A stretch of DNA of 64,000 nt, taken from Sphingomonas lutea. Lineage in GTDB: Bacteria; Pseudomonadota; Alphaproteobacteria; Sphingomonadales; Sphingomonadaceae. Every line of letters starts with the position of its first letter. The stretch's first letter is position 1. The stretch lies in the NCBI RefSeq assembly GCF_014396785.1, contig NZ_CP060718.1:1942501-2006500 (forward strand), written 5' to 3'. Both the position numbers and the translations under genes were made by a program. Below the pieces are notes generated by a model. It was not told the DNA's origin, searched no databases, and saw nothing but the letters and a program-made list of their open reading frames with translations. Shown piece after piece: positions 47,924 through 53,372 of this stretch.

Positions 47924-48876
47924 ATGTCCGCCACCGGCACCTTCGCCTTCGAAACCCGCTCCTCATGTCCGGCCTGCGGCTCGCCGGAATCGCGCCGGCG
48001 CTTCGCCGCCCGCTTCGACCAGCCGCCGATCGCCGGTTTCATCTCATCCTTCTACAAGATCGATCCCGCACGCCTCGACGGCACCTATGACGCACGCCAG
48101 TGCACCGCCTGTGGCACCTTTTTCCAGGCCGAGGTCGGCAACGACGCGCTGCTCGAGCAGCTCTACACGCACTGGGTCTTCGAAATCGGCGATCCCATGC
48201 GCGATCCGCATTACGCCTTCGACGTCACCCACCCTGCACTATCCCGCGACGGCCACGAACTGATGACCGCCGCCGCCGTCCTGGGCCGCGACCTCCAGGC
48301 CATGCGCACGCTCGACTTCGGCATGGGCTGGGCCGGCTGGGCCCGCGTCGCCAAAAGCCTTGGCTGCGACTCCTACGGCCACGAACTCTCCGCCGATCGT
48401 GTCGCTTACGCGGCCACGCATGGCATCAAGCCGTTCGATCCGAAGCTCACCTATCATTTCATCAACACCGAACAGGTGTTCGAACATCTCACCGATCCGC
48501 TCGGAGCGGCGCACATGCTCGCCGGCGTCCTCGCGCCCGGCGGAATCCTCAAAATCTCGCTCCCCTCCCCCACGGCCTCGATCGCCTGCTCGACCGGCTC
48601 AAGCCCGGCGAAGGCGACGTCAGCTACGAAGAGATCATGCCCCTGCAACCGCTGGAGCACGTCAATTGCTTCACCGTCGCCGGTTTGCGCGCGCTCGCCG
48701 GCAAGACCGGCCTCAGCTTCACCCGCCCGCCGATCCTCCGTTCCTACCTCACCCTCGCCCGCCGCCGCGCGCTCGACCCGCGCCTTCCGAAGCAAGTCGC
48801 CAAGGAACTCGCGCGGCCCTTCTACCGCCGCCTCAATCCGCGCAACCATCACGTCTGGCTGCGCAAGCCCGCCTGA
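47924..48876 (+). CDS. SAM-dependent methyltransferase, frameshift at 48562-48571
   Basis: A class-I methyltransferase with an N-terminal zinc-like CPACGSPESRRRF and CTACGTFF. The SAM region is LDFGMGWAGWARVAKSLG, and FINTEQVFEHLTDPLG and APGGILKISLP follow. The frame then changes: the C-terminus DRLLDRLKPGEGDVSYEEIM to HHVWLRKPA reads one base earlier. One extra C in a four-C run gives SLPLPHGLDRLLDRLKPGEG and an intact protein. It resembles methyltransferases of glycan-modification loci. Its end overlaps the phage protease gene on the other strand. Confidence 0.82.
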
Positions 48877-49226
48877 ACCGCATGCACCCGCGCTCGCGGC
48901 TGCATCGGATTGGCAACCAGGCTGACCTCGACCAGGTCGAGCGCGATCAGCTCGCGCTTGCCGCCCGCCGCCGACGCTTCACGCACGCGATAACCGAAGC
49001 TCAAACCATTGATCTTGCCGCCGCCGACCAACCGCGCAGCGCGCGCATCCTCGACCGCCGCAATCACCCGCAGCCCGCGCTTGTCCTCGCTCAAATGCTC
49101 GATCCGCCCAACCACCGCGCCCGCTTTGTGCTGCCACACCAAAGGCACCTCGCCCGCGCGCCGCAATGCCTCGGCAAACGCCCCGGCGCGGATCACATCC
49201 CCGCCTTTGTCCGGCCGTCCAAACAC
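48849..49226 (-). CDS. HK97-type prohead protease (GTA g4-like), 5' end damaged
   Basis: Capsid-maturation protease of the S78 (U35) family. The catalytic His and Ser areas are VPLVWQHKAGAVVG and GKINGLSFGYRVREAS. The frame continues upstream of the GTG at 49226 as VRFAGYAAVFGRPD, the usual N-terminus, but no start codon is found there; the perfect hairpin 49253-49276 sits at that point. The expected major capsid gene downstream is missing and a methyltransferase lies there instead. It may be inactive. Confidence 0.75.
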   Translation of the reverse strand: MFGRPDKGGDVIRAGAFAEALRRAGEVPLVWQHKAGAVVGRIEHLSEDKRGLRVIAAVEDARAARLVGGGKINGLSFGYRVREASAAGGKRELIALDLVEVSLVANPMQPRARVHAVQAGLRSQT

Positions 49227-49252
49227 CGCCGCATAGCCCGCGAACCTTACCT

Positions 49253-49276
49253 CCCCCTCCCGCCTGCGGGAGGGGG
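49253..49276. repeat. Perfect C/G-rich hairpin repeat
   Basis: CCCCCTCCCGC and GCGGGAGGGGG form an 11-base perfect stem with a two-base loop. This kind of element is frequent in sphingomonad genomes. It ends at the protease 5' end. Confidence 0.75.
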
Positions 49277-49299
49277 CCGGGGGAGAGCCTGTCGCCCGC

Positions 49300-49608
49300 T
49301 CACGAGAACAAATCCGTCAGCCGCAGCCGCACCGCGATCCCGATCAGCAACAGGGCCAGCGCCACCCGCACGATCCAGCCGACGATCGCCTGCCGCGCGC
49401 TTTTCTTCGCATCGCGCCAGGCCGACAGCAGTTCGCGCAATTCATCCATGTCGCGCCGCGCCCGCGAATCGTCGAGGCCGAGCTGCGCCAACGCCCGCCG
49501 CGCCCCCGCCTCGGACGATTCCTCGGCCAGCGCGCGCAAGGTGATCATGTCCACCCCGCGCCCCTCGGCCTGCGCCATCAAGCTCGCGAGAAGGGCCTCC
49601 GCGCTCAC
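49300..49608 (-). CDS. Small membrane protein between portal and protease
   Basis: A 102-residue protein, MSAEALLASLMAQAEGRGVDMITLRALAEESSEAG with a C-terminal membrane helix IVGWIVRVALALLLIGIAV. Its place, overlapping the portal stop by four bases and preceding the protease, matches the small gene between g3 and g4 in RcGTA-like clusters (DUF6127-like). Function unknown. Confidence 0.72.
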   Translation of the reverse strand: MSAEALLASLMAQAEGRGVDMITLRALAEESSEAGARRALAQLGLDDSRARRDMDELRELLSAWRDAKKSARQAIVGWIVRVALALLLIGIAVRLRLTDLFS

Positions 49609-50726
49609 GATCGCACCTCCGCTTCAAACCCGAGCATCTCGCGCTTCTCCGCATCGCTGAGGAACGTCGCCGCTCCCACCTGCTCCCACAATTTCGCGCG
49701 GTCCTCGGCCAGCTCGCTCAGCTGGTCGGTATCCACCGCCAGCCGCACCGGCCCCAGCCAGTCGCCCAGCATCTCGCCCAGCGCGTTCAGCACCCGCGCC
49801 GCCATCGGCAGCACCGTCTGGCGATAGAGCGCCCGCCCCGCCTCGCGTGCATTGGCATAGGTCGCGTCGCCCGGCAGCCCGACCAGCACCGGCGGCACGC
49901 CGAACGCCAGCGCGATATCGCGCGCCGCGCCTTCCTTCAGCGCAACGAAATCCATGTCCGCGGGCGTCAGGCTCAGCGGCAGCCACTTGAGCCCGCCGTC
50001 GAGCAGTAGCGGCCGCCCGGCATTGCCCGCGCCGGCAAATTCCACCGCCAGTTCCTCGCGCAGCCGCGCGAATTGCTCGCCCGTCAACACGCTGCCGTCG
50101 GCCGGCTCGTAGCTCATCGCCCCGCTCGGCCGCGCGGCATTGTCGAGCAGCGACTTGTTCCATTTCGCCGCGCGGTTGTGCACGCTCGCCGCGCCGATCG
50201 CCGCGTCCAGGCAGCCCAGCCCATAATGGTCGTCGCGCGGGTTGAGCGCCTTGATATGCGCGATGCTCCGCCGGTCGAGCCCGTCGGCGCGGTTGATCCG
50301 CACCGCCTGCCCGCCCGCGCGGTAAAGATAGCCGACCGGCCAGCCGCGATCGTCGCTGATCACGCTCACCCGCTCGGGCCGCAGCAGGCACAATTCCGCC
50401 GGCGCATCGCGGTCGTCGGCGATCAGCTGCACATAGGCATTGCCGTGCAACAACAGGTTCGCCGCGATCGTCTCGAGCAGCCCGTCACGCTGCACCTGGC
50501 TCGCCGCCCGCGCGTCACCCTCCGCTGCATAAACCGGTAACGCACCGAGCATCCCCGCCACCAGCCGCACCGCGCGCTGGCCGACGGGATTGCGTCGGTA
50601 CACTTCCTCGACCTGCGCCGAATAGGAGCGAGCGAACCCCACCTCATCTGCATCACTCTGCAGCCACGCGGGCACAATCGGCCTCACGTCCGCCGGCGCG
50701 CTCTTGCGCCCGAACCACCACCCCAT
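49605..50726 (-). CDS. Phage/GTA portal protein
   Basis: HK97-family portal protein of 373 residues. It begins MGWWFGRKSAP, with YRRNPVGQRAVRLVAGMLGALPV and LLHGNAYVQLI. Later blocks are WNKSLLDNAARPSGAM and GVPPVLVGLPGDATYANAREAGRALYR. The match to RcGTA g3 is good in length and in the DATYAN region. It forms the DNA-entry vertex of the head. The element at 50737-50866 precedes it on the other strand. Confidence 0.93.
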   Translation of the reverse strand: MGWWFGRKSAPADVRPIVPAWLQSDADEVGFARSYSAQVEEVYRRNPVGQRAVRLVAGMLGALPVYAAEGDARAASQVQRDGLLETIAANLLLHGNAYVQLIADDRDAPAELCLLRPERVSVISDDRGWPVGYLYRAGGQAVRINRADGLDRRSIAHIKALNPRDDHYGLGCLDAAIGAASVHNRAAKWNKSLLDNAARPSGAMSYEPADGSVLTGEQFARLREELAVEFAGAGNAGRPLLLDGGLKWLPLSLTPADMDFVALKEGAARDIALAFGVPPVLVGLPGDATYANAREAGRALYRQTVLPMAARVLNALGEMLGDWLGPVRLAVDTDQLSELAEDRAKLWEQVGAATFLSDAEKREMLGFEAEVRS

Positions 50727-50736
50727 GTTCGCTCTC

Positions 50737-50866
50737 CTTGAGCCGCCACGCATAAGCGGCAAATTGCGCAGCGATTTGCTGCTTATGTCGATGAGACGGC
50801 GAAAGCCGGCCGGCCTGCGCGGCAAACCGCGACAGGACCGACGTCACGGGATTCACTCCCGTGACG
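50737..50866 (+). ncRNA. Putative structured RNA, copy A (unknown family)
   Basis: Hairpin 1 (50751-50787) is a 14-base stem CATAAGCGGCAAAT / ATTTGCTGCTTATG with loop TGCGCAGCG. A GAAA-containing segment (CGGCGAAAGCCG) follows. Hairpin 2 (50814-50836) is CCTGCGCGG / CCGCG-A-CAGG with loop CAAA. Hairpin 3 (50842-50866) is CGTCACGGGA / TCCCGTGACG. It aligns without gaps over 86 bases with copy B (66 identities) and the stem differences are largely compensatory. One G-U pair favours this strand. A DUF1294 gene starts 49 bases downstream, so a leader role is possible. Confidence 0.7.
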
Positions 50867-50915
50867 GCCCCGCGTCATTAAACTCTTGCCCAGAAACGTT
50901 TGCTAAGCGCCTGGC

Positions 50916-51191
50916 ATGACCATCCCGTGGACCTACGCCTTGCCCGCGCTGCTGTTCGTCAATGTCTGGACGTACGTCAGCTTCTGCCAAGACAAGCGCC
51001 TCGCCCAGAAGGGTCTCCACCGCATCCCGGAAAGCAATCTGCTCATGCTAGCAGCCTTGGGCGGATCACCGGCCGCACTGCTCGCGCGCCATCGCTTCCG
51101 CCACAAGACCCGCAAGCAGCCGTTTTCCACGCTCCTCTTCGTCATCATCGCGCTTCAAATCGGCGCCCTCATGGGATGGTTCGTGATCTAA
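50916..51191 (+). CDS. DUF1294 small membrane protein
   Basis: A 91-residue protein with three or four membrane helices (YALPALLFVNVWTYVSFCQD, NLLMLAALGGSPAALLAR, LLFVIIALQIGALMGWFVI). The mid-segment RIPESNLLMLAALGG and KTRKQPF match DUF1294. It lies on the plus strand inside the minus-strand head-gene cluster, with its stop overlapping the terminase stop by four bases. Confidence 0.85.
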   Translation: MTIPWTYALPALLFVNVWTYVSFCQDKRLAQKGLHRIPESNLLMLAALGGSPAALLARHRFRHKTRKQPFSTLLFVIIALQIGALMGWFVI

Positions 51192-52570
51192 ATCCGCACC
51201 ACCCGCGGCACCCCGCTGCGTGTCTCCCCAAGCGCCGTCAGCGCCCATACCATCGCATCCGCGCGATCGGGCGACCGCCCCGGCCCTTCGTAACCGCCGC
51301 CCGCGATCATCCCGGACAGCTCGGCCTCCAGCTCCGGAAAATCGCCCGCCAAAAACGCCTTGCCCGCCTCGAACTTGAGCGCGACCGGCTCGGCCCGCGC
51401 ACACTTCCCGCGGCTCGCGTGCACCAGCCGCACCTTCAGCCCGAAGTCCGCGGCCTTGAGCACGCTTTCGACCATCACCCCGCCATTATTGGCCTCGGCC
51501 ACCACCAGCCCCGCGCCCCATCGCGCCGCCGCCGACGCCACGCGGCTCGCCCAGCCTTCGGGACTCAATCCCTGGACGCTTGCATCTTCGAGCACATAGA
51601 GCGCTTGGCCGATCGACCCGGCGACGACGACCCCGCAAGCATCGGCGCCAGCCCCCACGCTCGCCGGCGGATCGACGCCCACGACGATCCGGTCGAAACA
51701 TGCTGCCCGCTCATCCTGAGTGGCCGCTGAGCGAAGCCGAAGCGGCGTATCGAAGGACGCACTCAACAACTCGCGCGTCCACAGCGCCCCCTCGAAATCC
51801 GCGAGCAGCTCACCGTCCAATTCCTGCCGCCCAATGCGCGTCCCGCCATAGGTTGCACGAAGCATGTCCACCGTCCGCTCGTCGAGGTTGATGTTGTCGC
51901 TCGTCCGCCCGCGCGTGGTCACCGTCCATGGCTCCCCCATGATCCGCCCCAGCAGCGTCAAGGTGCGCGGCGTGGTGGTGATCAGCACGCGCGGTCGCGT
52001 GCCCCGCCGCATTCCGAATTGCAGATTCATCCACGCATCTTCGATCTCTCGCCACTTGGCCATTTCGTCGGCCCAGGCGAAATCATGCTCGGGCCCGCGC
52101 AGGCCGTCGGCATGCTCGCCTGAAAACAGCTTTACCTCGCTCCCGTTGGGCCAGGTCAGCCGGTGCAGGCTCGGCTCCCAGTTCAGCCGGCGCCGCTTGC
52201 GCCGGGCAATGCTGAGCAGTCCACTGACCCCTTCCACCATGATCGTCCGCGCATCCGCCAGATTGGCGCCGATGCAGGCGATCTTCAGGTTCGGCTTCCC
52301 GCTGGCCAGGCGGAAGATCCATTCCGCCCCGGCGCGCGTCTTGCCGAACCCGCGCCCGGCCATCATCAGCCACGTCCGCCAGCCCTCGCCGTTCGGCGGC
52401 AGCTGGTTTTCGTGCGCCCATTGCTCGAAGTCGGCATCGAAGGCGAGCGCGTCGCCGACCGACATCTGCTCAATGGCGCGTCGCTGGATCTCCGGTGGGG
52501 CATTCATCAGCATCGCCATCTCGTGGCGAGTCACCCCGTAATTCGACTCTGGCCGCTTCTTGCTCGTCAT
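51188..52570 (-). CDS. Terminase large subunit
   Basis: DNA-packaging ATPase/nuclease of 460 residues. Walker A is MMAGRGFGKTRAGAEW and Walker B HDFAWADEMAKW; the nuclease acidic residues are in VVGVDPPAS and PDRADAMVWAL. It is like RcGTA g2. Residues DTPLRLRSAATQDERAA come from a palindromic repeat inserted in frame just before the nuclease motif. The start overlaps the small-subunit gene by about 100 bases; ATGs at 52519 and 52507 are alternatives. Confidence 0.93.
   Translation of the reverse strand: MTSKKRPESNYGVTRHEMAMLMNAPPEIQRRAIEQMSVGDALAFDADFEQWAHENQLPPNGEGWRTWLMMAGRGFGKTRAGAEWIFRLASGKPNLKIACIGANLADARTIMVEGVSGLLSIARRKRRRLNWEPSLHRLTWPNGSEVKLFSGEHADGLRGPEHDFAWADEMAKWREIEDAWMNLQFGMRRGTRPRVLITTTPRTLTLLGRIMGEPWTVTTRGRTSDNINLDERTVDMLRATYGGTRIGRQELDGELLADFEGALWTRELLSASFDTPLRLRSAATQDERAACFDRIVVGVDPPASVGAGADACGVVVAGSIGQALYVLEDASVQGLSPEGWASRVASAAARWGAGLVVAEANNGGVMVESVLKAADFGLKVRLVHASRGKCARAEPVALKFEAGKAFLAGDFPELEAELSGMIAGGGYEGPGRSPDRADAMVWALTALGETRSGVPRVVRI
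51706..51761. repeat. Half palindromic repeat inside the terminase gene
   Basis: CGCTCATCCTGAG and GCTGAGCGAAGCCGAAGCGGC match the left half of the element at 11774-11891. It is translated in frame within the terminase. Confidence 0.78.
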
Positions 52571-53042
52571 GTCGCTTTTTCAATCGCTGCAATTTGTTGA
52601 CCAGCCGGGCGCGGATCTCGTCCAGGTCGTCGGGCGGCAGTTCGGCATCGCTCTCGACCGCGGTTTCGCGGTGCATCTTGAGCAAGGTCAGCGCCATCTG
52701 GTTGGGGTACTCGCGCACCCGTTCCTCGCTGCCATCCTTGCGCGTGATGACCTTTTCGGTCCCATTGAAGGCCCGGTCGAGCAGCAGCGCTTCGAGCCGC
52801 TGGTAACCGATCGCGATCGCTTCCAGCCAGGCGGCGCGAAACGCCGCATCCATCTTGCGCCGCCGATAGGCGACCGTCACCGGCACGCCGCTGGTGCGGC
52901 ACGCTTCGCTGACGTTGCAGGTTGCCGCAAGCGTTTCGAGAAAGGCCTCGGCCTTCTCTTTCGACCAGTCGCGCGGCGCGCATCTCTTCAATTGCGGCGC
53001 CGCCGCCGCGACCAGAGTCAGCGCCTTCCGTCTTTGCCCCAC
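52470..53042 (-). CDS. Terminase small subunit-like DNA-binding protein
   Basis: A 190-residue protein with a helix-turn-helix-like N-terminus (AFLETLAATCNVSEACRTSGVPVTVAYRRRKMDAAFRAAW). A helical middle part (YQRLEALLLDRAFNGTEKVI) and a charged tail follow. Together with the large subunit it should select DNA for packaging. GTG at 53042 has GGAGG five bases before it; a TTG at 53054 is less likely. Confidence 0.8.
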   Translation of the reverse strand: MGQRRKALTLVAAAAPQLKRCAPRDWSKEKAEAFLETLAATCNVSEACRTSGVPVTVAYRRRKMDAAFRAAWLEAIAIGYQRLEALLLDRAFNGTEKVITRKDGSEERVREYPNQMALTLLKMHRETAVESDAELPPDDLDEIRARLVNKLQRLKKRHDEQEAARVELRGDSPRDGDADECPTGDPATRH

Positions 53043-53054
53043 CCATGCCTCCAA

Positions 53055-53372
53055 ACGAAAAGGGCCGGGTCGCTCCCTTGGGAACGCCGGCCCTCGAACC
53101 CCGCGGGGTCCGAATCACAGTCCTTCACTGTTCAGTCTTGAGCGCCCGAGCATAAGCGAGCGGTTGCGCAGCGACCGAACGCTTGTGTCGAAGAGAGCGC
53201 GAAAGCCGGACGGCCTGCGCGCGAAGACGCGACAGGACCGACGGCGCGGATTTATTCCGTGCCGGCGCCGCCCATCAGCGACTCACACTTTTCGACTGTT
53301 CCTGTCGTCTAACCAAACATCGTCACGATGTCAACAGTTATTTTGCCTATTTGGTTATAAAGTTCGCGAGCC
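53055..53372. other. Intergenic region holding RNA copy B
   Basis: A stretch of about 320 bases whose only recognisable content is the structured element at 53137-53264. The end nearest the hemerythrin gene is A/T-rich (CAACAGTTATTTTGCC). Confidence 0.6.
53137..53264 (+). ncRNA. Putative structured RNA, copy B (unknown family)
   Basis: It lies exactly 2400 bases from copy A. Hairpin 1 (53151-53187) is CATAAGCGAGCGGT / ACCGAACGCTTGTG with two mismatches and the identical loop TGCGCAGCG. Hairpin 2 (53214-53236) is CCTGCGCG / CGCG-A-CAGG. Hairpin 3 (53242-53264) is CGGCGCGGA / TCCGTGCCG. Against copy A, three A-U pairs of hairpin 1 become C-G or G-C and a G-U becomes G-C. U-G and G-U pairs in hairpins 1 and 3 would be mismatches on the other strand. 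No plus-strand gene follows. Confidence 0.68.

Follow-up and report, generated by a model that had tools for sequence, protein, structure and literature searches.

Introduction

The enterobacterial repetitive intergenic consensus (ERIC) and other bacterial miniature inverted-repeat transposable elements (MITEs) are about 100–150 bp long, occur in tens of copies, fold strongly, and lie next to genes. The attC sites of integrons keep their fold despite a variable sequence, carry extra-helical bases, and sit just past the stop codon of a gene. Repetitive extragenic palindromic sequences (REPs) are palindromes of 20–40 bp with an unpaired GTAG or CGTC tag, as described in passages of Di Nocera et al. 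(2013, PMC3733652). According to the same passages, GTAG- and CGTC-tagged REPs are dispersed and lie mostly between co-directional or convergent genes; in S. wittichii and P. entomophila most of the REPs between convergent genes are less than 20 bp from gene 3′ ends, and the ends of GTAG REPs often supply the stop codon (PMC3733652). CGTC REPs are described there as frequent in α-Proteobacteria, including S. wittichii and S. chlorophenolicum, apparently without a dedicated transposase (PMC3733652). Here we describe a dispersed structured element, two copies of which (copy 1 and copy 2) lie in a 64,000-nt stretch of the Sphingomonas lutea genome (contig NZ_CP060718.1, positions 1,942,501–2,006,500; hereafter the window). 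We regard it as a REP/MITE-like repeat of new architecture, and we give an even chance to the reading that it is kept as a module of transcript 3′ ends.

The fold and its covariation

The two window copies had been proposed from the letters of the DNA, and we found them independently as a direct repeat with 77% identity over 113 nt, with starts spaced 2400 nt apart. The original prediction counted 66 identical bases in an ungapped core of 86; we count 65 over the opening 86 bases and, in the frame that aligns best, 69 of 86, which is close to that figure. The compensatory changes described in hairpin 1 were confirmed: three A-U pairs are replaced by C-G, G-C, and G-C, and one G-U pair by G-C. 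Hairpin 1 of copy 2 also carries changes that had gone unmentioned, namely two lost pairs (G-C to A A and C-G to G A) and one U-A that became U-G. Translated frames keep 22–26 of 37 residues (60–70%) compared to 77% for the DNA, in agreement with the earlier statement that there is no protein signal beyond the DNA. The + strand folds better than its shuffles, with z of −8.8 for copy 1 and −5.6 for copy 2 and 0 of 200 shuffles as good in each case, whereas the − strand gave weaker values (−6.6 and −2.8, respectively).

The copies share a fixed fold, which is kept by paired changes. It consists of a basal helix interrupted by a GA/GA internal loop and of three hairpins, the second of which is bulged (Table 1). 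The first alignment comprised 17 copies that were DNA search matches, aligned by sequence; they were taken from the 20 best, with the more divergent loci L012, L013, and L019 excluded. In this set 84.5% of cells pair, and 36 of the 44 pairs are altered on both sides. Two-sided changes occupy 130 cells, compared to 47.7 after shuffling, and 0 of 500 shuffles reached the observed value. When the partner was slid by 1 to 3 columns, pairing fell to 30–37%. Moreover, the DNA match to the copy 1 query started at base 52 or beyond in 12 of the 17 copies, so that the 5′ arms of helix P1 and hairpin 1 played no part in the selection of those copies; these arms nevertheless pair. The second alignment, of 94 copies (92 distinct), was fitted to the model and is biased towards it. 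Here 90.4% of cells pair, 42 of 43 pairs are altered on both sides, and 1044 cells show two-sided changes, compared to 345.5 after shuffling. Helix P1 is paired in 96.0% of cells and the helices of hairpins 2 and 3 in 96.3–98.2%. A mutual-information scan of 90 of the 94 rows (two duplicate and two poor rows removed) placed all of the 12 most strongly covarying column pairs within the structure. Although the stems vary, conserved unpaired stretches such as CCGAG and GCGAA are retained, as is the bulged A of hairpin 2. The alignments of 17 and 94 copies thus bear out the conserved, truly covarying fold of the original prediction.

No Rfam family reached its gathering score on the window copies, consistent with the earlier remark that no RNA family fits. 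In a search of the window and 20 loci with Rfam 15 at gathering scores, only tRNA and SRP (signal recognition particle) RNA were matched. At permissive E-values, the best overlap with copy 1 was mir-4659, which scored 20.2 bits where its gathering score is 92, and the elements of 8 loci had no match.

Distribution of the family

A DNA search with copy 1 as the query gave 24 places at E ≤ 1 in its own genome, which is one contig of 2.42 Mb. Model R1, built from the 17-copy alignment and used to score 150 first-look candidates, gave 29 places on both strands at E ≤ 0.1. Of these, 26 were below 1e-6, two inside the window and 24 outside it. A chance origin of the window repeat is excluded, because 26 copies of this strength occur in the same genome. 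No pair of own-genome copies exceeds about 80% identity, which argues against a recent burst.

The original prediction had suggested a search with a covariance model, and ours found further copies in related genomes. Among 41 relatives, R1 at E ≤ 0.01 matched 25 of 25 genomes of the same genus, one of them (G021) with a single match of E 0.003, and 0 of 16 genomes from other families. Among 298 genomes of the same family, with 11 candidates scored per genome, at least 61 were matched, and these are spread over 26 of 96 genera. Model R2, built from the 94 copies, matched 9 of 99 genomes across the order, all of them among the 26 of the same family. None of the 73 genomes from seven other families of the order was matched in this search, which ran at reduced sensitivity with stricter filters and 34 candidates per genome. 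A pattern scan of named genomes returned 16 records, in two of which the model confirmed the element. Since both are Sphingomonas sp., we take the family to be Sphingomonadaceae, to which the element appears to be confined among the sampled genomes. At blastn sensitivity, the element had no match in collections of plasmids and phages, and the open-licence literature gave no description of this repeat family.

Position at gene ends

We examined 75 of the 85 loci from the first three model searches, leaving out L050–L052 (weak), L055, L063, L075, L076, L090, L102, and L103. Loci from other genomes are mostly the best match per genome, and the sample is not random; genes were called by a simple composition rule and not by a gene finder. 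In 48 of the 75 loci the element starts at the stop codon of a same-strand, coding-like open frame; of 2730 positions drawn at random from these loci, 72 (2.6%) do so. A cruder earlier count had given 33 gene-end starts in 53 loci. Four more of the 75 elements begin at the 3′ end of an RNA gene. About two thirds of the copies, then, start at the 3′ end of the preceding gene on the same strand. The end of the stop codon lies most often at element position +5 (18 of 48). We dropped this tight offset as evidence by itself, because the test covered only stops ending between −14 and +11 nt relative to the element start; the comparison with random positions stands.

The upstream genes, as we name them from their translations, include lepA, rpoZ, nusG, ctaD, purH, and gyrB. 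The nearest called downstream gene lies at a median distance of 82 nt. With the loci outside the 75, the RNA genes that end at an element amount to seven tRNA genes and the SRP RNA (Table 1). Two further elements, L107 and L269, lie beside the 5′ end of a tRNA on the opposite strand. Of ten neighbouring pairs of elements, six are arranged tail-to-tail and three in tandem (L270, L271, L273), while the elements of L272 are head-to-head. In two of the six tail-to-tail pairs (L266, L267) each element sits at the stop codon of its own convergent gene, and in the other four at least one element is at a gene end.

Sites at lepA and the SRP RNA

We found lepA in 63 of 71 genomes of the genus, and 21 of the 63 carry the element at its stop codon; in one of the 21 (G004) the lepA end that bears it is a second, displaced copy. 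The lepA-stop element is also present in seven genomes of six other genera (G052, G083, G086, G152, G157, G159, G163). At the 3′ end of the SRP RNA, the element occurs in 14 of 59 same-genus genomes with readable downstream sequence; in seven further genomes the sequence ends too early for a call, and one has its SRP gene at another place. Copies from one site alone covary as well. The lepA-site alignment (21 same-genus and 5 other genomes) has 36 of 43 pairs altered on both sides and 269 two-sided cells, compared to 92.8 after shuffling. For the 14 SRP-site copies, the values are 32 of 43 pairs and 117 cells, compared to 38.3. On a weak dnaX tree of 288 columns and 65 genomes, in which unreadable SRP sites were scored absent and the lepA bearer G016 is missing, presence is patchy, with 12 changes for the SRP site and 15 for lepA. 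Such patchiness points to repeated losses, gains, or both.

Several observations concern these sites as such. Several genomes repeat the lepA 3′ end once or more downstream of lepA (L199/L223, L200, L220, L221, L222, L224, L225, L245, L253, L190). Accessory genes or a short linker separate the repeated end from the gene, and in L190, L199, L200, and L245 a hairpin-like AGTCC...GGACT stretch lies in that interval. The own genome has a 74-nt lepA-end fragment about 225 nt past the lepA stop. The lepA end looks like a recurrent site of integration or capture. A general duplication of gene 3′ ends downstream of elements was rejected, with 2 hits and 2 control hits among the 75 loci; only the duplication at the own-genome lepA exceeds a 13-base match. 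A second, smaller sequence by the lepA stop, with TAA, a GG(T/C)(T/G)TTCC-like start, and GTTGGAA or similar, was seen in L197, L204, L208, L217, L238, and L244, and is in tandem in L238. Past the lepA stop of L218, the sequence looks like the 5′ half of the element, with P1 and hairpin 1, and then becomes unrelated to it; this is likely a truncated copy missed by the model.

At the SRP RNA, eight element-free genomes share a GCTCGC start right at the 3′ end (L284, L291, L295, L301, L307, L311, L316, L317), and L288 has a longer repeat there containing CTCGCAATGAC. Other repeat families may settle at this end too. The idea that bearers have lost the U-run of an SRP terminator was dropped, because a run of at least four T opens only 5 of the 45 element-free sites.

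Insertion of copy 2

At least one element, copy 2, arrived by insertion. It is missing at the same place in four relatives (G012, G005, G355, G345). The G012 sequence is continuous there, while the window has a 145-nt insert between two 23-nt direct repeats, both of which resemble the empty site. Among the 75 elements, 6 have direct repeats in their own flanks scoring at least 22, a slight excess over the 1.6 expected. Counterparts of copy 1 lie upstream of portal in G005 and G350, and G345 has an element whose flank is similar; no element lies at this place in G022 and G361.

The element ends do not form terminal inverted repeats: 7.41 of 15 positions match between the ends of the same element compared to 7.24 for mismatched ends, and 0 of 75 elements reach 13. 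In consequence, a MITE with inverted repeats was ruled out. The Y1/REP transposase (PF01797) is absent from the own genome (G000) and present in 1 of 25 same-genus genomes, and a REP driven by a REP-associated tyrosine transposase was ruled out because the own genome has no Y1 transposase. Reverse transcriptases (RVT_1), considered as another means of mobility, occur in 6 of the 25, the own genome included, where an RVT_1-like open reading frame (ORF) lies at G000:C1:1080338-1080769. Near the place of copy 2, G022 has short CGTCATCCCCGCGAAAGCGGGGACCCA-type repeats (L149, about 2600–2830), which are probably CGTC-type REPs.

Table 1. Features in the window and gene ends of structured RNAs at which elements begin; positions count from the first letter of the window, and L and G labels denote loci and genomes
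Feature	Position or locus	Strand	Basis and remarks
Copy 1, full model length	50737..50868	+	cmsearch model R2 129.5 bits; direct repeat D1
Copy 1, domain 1	50737..50805	+	structure mapped on copy 1; pair counts over 17 and 94 copies; mutual information
Copy 1, basal helix P0, 3 bp	50737-50739 with 50803-50805	+	followed by symmetric GA/GA internal loop
Copy 1, helix P1, 4 bp	50742-50745 with 50797-50800	+	within domain 1
Copy 1, hairpin 1	50751-50767 with 50771-50787	+	within domain 1
Copy 1, hairpin 2, two conserved bulged A	50811..50840	+	structure on copy 1 and pair counts
Copy 1, hairpin 3, loop ATTCACT	50843..50865	+	structure on copy 1 and pair counts
Copy 2, full model length	53137..53266	+	cmsearch model R2 120 bits; direct repeat D1
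Copy 2, domain 1 and hairpins 2 and 3; two hairpin 1 pairs unformed	53137..53263	+	model alignment
Left 23-nt direct repeat, target-duplication-like	53111..53133	.	own-flank alignment score 24; single-copy empty site in G012
Right 23-nt direct repeat	53279..53301	.	insert between repeats 53134-53278 (145 nt)
Similar element-free sites for copy 2	G005, G355, G345		comparison with relatives at the place of copy 2
tRNA-Leu(CAA) 3′ end, two genomes; tRNA-Arg; small SRP RNA	L043, L067, L044, L048		RNA-gene-end elements among the 75
tRNA-Trp 3′ end, two genomes	L075, L076 (weak match)		outside the 75; L075 overlaps tRNA by 12 nt
tRNA-Gly 3′ end	L172		outside the 75
tRNA-Pro 3′ end	L264		outside the 75
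Portal protein gene, phage-type	49605..50726	-	PF04860 221.6 bits; context only
DUF1294 small protein gene, downstream of copy 1	50916..51191	+	PF06961 71.5 bits; context
Terminase large subunit	51188..52570	-	PF03237 91.7 bits, PF17289 60.4 bits; context
Terminase small subunit-like ORF	52470..53054	-	phrog_4044 E 9.6e-14; Pfam Sf6_terminase below cut-off; context

Role of the element

The element starts, in one orientation, at the ends of genes that are transcribed and not always translated, which suggests that what it marks is the 3′ end of the transcript. In such a role, most copies would be transcribed together with the upstream gene and would be retained since their fold closes off the transcript at its 3′ end. 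The fold may block 3′ exonucleases, or it may signal termination or processing. A protein that recognises the conserved loops and bulges might bind it, and the copies would occasionally spread via an insertion machinery.

Several results weigh against this role. First, 23 of the 75 elements have neither a called stop codon nor the end of an RNA gene at their start. In addition, one of the 48 assigned to stop codons, copy 2 of the window (L027), depends on a probably spurious ORF that runs antisense to the terminase gene. Second, in the sequence-aligned set G-U occupies 15 cells and A-C 23; with G-U not above A-C, these counts give no indication that selection acts on the + strand RNA. The model-fitted sets gave 102 G-U vs 50 A-C and 34 vs 21, under a model that itself favours G-U. 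The share of G-U is 15 of 710 cells in the sequence-aligned elements vs 23 of 424 pairs (5.4%) in 20 tRNAs of the loci. Third, the base composition after the 75 elements shows no U-run (T 0.29, then 0.18), so the element is not a standard intrinsic terminator. Finally, copies are frequently gained or lost, hence no single copy is essential.

The fold may instead act as DNA, in a non-autonomous REP/MITE-like element whose hairpins, formed in single-stranded DNA or as cruciforms, would be recognised by an enzyme of transposition or recombination; the build-up at gene 3′ ends would then come from the loss of other insertions or from a preference of the enzyme. We consider this possible, and less probable than a role at transcript ends. 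The dispersal of copies across the genome agrees with it, as do the insertion of copy 2 with its flanking repeats and empty sites, the slight excess of own-flank direct repeats, and the lack of a G-U over A-C excess in the sequence-aligned set. A habit of lying at gene ends is also known from REPs, as described in passages of Di Nocera et al. (PMC3733652). However, the element has no terminal inverted repeats, the Y1/REP transposase is missing from its own genome and rare in the genus, and no two own-genome copies are more than about 80% identical. Moreover, free insertion alone leaves unexplained the orientation towards upstream genes, coding and non-coding. In a further reading, a mobile fold would be directed to gene 3′ ends of any kind by a machinery other than the REP transposase, and its RNA would then define and protect the new end of the transcript. 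Such a portable 3′-end module, which we put forward only tentatively and think somewhat unlikely, would be a new class of structured element and not another REP.

An effect on translation termination is improbable. Here the terminating ribosome would open the basal helix that holds the stop codon, and stalling or recycling would tune expression; E. coli REPs near stop codons have been reported to affect expression through stalling or recycling. The frequent end of the stop at position 5 would place TGA in the helix and the GA/GA loop, and the basal pairs covary. Nevertheless, the same element lies at the 3′ ends of tRNAs and the SRP RNA, where no ribosome terminates. Even less probable is covariation without selection, produced by template switching that perfects imperfect palindromes during replication. 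One-sided (G-U) states are indeed few relative to two-sided changes, but the constancy of CCGAG, GCGAA, and the bulged A of hairpin 2 among varying stems does not fit this mechanism, nor does P1, which has only 4 bp and arms about 50 nt apart and yet is nearly always paired.

The phage-type neighbourhood

The interval 48849–53054 of the window holds packaging and head genes, namely those of the terminase small and large subunits, the portal, and a prohead protease. The likely ribosome-binding site of the portal gene adjoins copy 1. The small DUF1294 gene sits between the portal and terminase genes, and relatives vary widely in that interval. The original prediction had linked the pair of elements to the terminase genes; this special tie was not supported, as the family is genome-wide and about two thirds of the examined copies lie at gene 3′ ends. 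That the element is an RNA leader which regulates specifically the terminase and portal genes of this phage-like cluster is hardly credible and largely refuted. Both window copies do lie just upstream of packaging genes on the minus strand, and copy 1 has counterparts before the portal gene in two relatives. However, 24 further strong copies occur in the genome beyond the window, four relatives have no copy 2 at the same place, and the element, usually in sense with the preceding gene, is antisense to the packaging genes here. The window copies belong to the minority without a convincing preceding gene end, and their closeness to the terminase genes is incidental.

Comparison with known repeats

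The present family adds a well-supported structured element, with 43 pairs of which nearly all covary, that is absent from the Rfam library searched. It offers a clean case of an element often starting at gene ends, coding and non-coding alike, and makes a standing question testable, namely whether REP-like repeats are retained for a role as RNA 3′ ends or are only tolerated at such places. At the lepA and SRP RNA sites, species that have the element can be compared with species that lack it, which gives natural controls for that purpose.

The element shares with intrinsic terminators a G+C-rich hairpin right after the gene; unlike them, it is not followed by a U-run, its loops are conserved, and its basal helix extends to the end of the gene. 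With attC sites, it shares a conserved fold with variable sequence, unpaired bases, and a position past the stop codon. In contrast to attC, the fold has three parts, and the neighbours include core genes, tRNA, and SRP RNA. ERIC and other MITEs resemble it in size, copy number, strong folding, and position next to genes. However, the element lacks terminal inverted repeats (15–30 bp in MITEs), the direct repeats of copy 2 are 23 nt long, and its copies diverge widely in sequence while the fold stays constant. Like REPs, it is dispersed and close to gene 3′ ends, mostly at stop codons and in a few loci at RNA genes. Unlike REPs, it is not a single palindrome of 20–40 bp: it is ~130 nt long, with several helices, a GA/GA loop, and bulges. 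It also has no consistent tag, with GTAG at the 5′ end (first 20 nt and the 5 nt before) in 16 of 75 elements and CGTC at the 3′ end (last 25 nt and the 5 nt after) in 16 of 75. The gene-end habit is therefore already known from REPs, and the element itself is neither a REP, by its size, tag, and fold, nor a MITE, by its ends.

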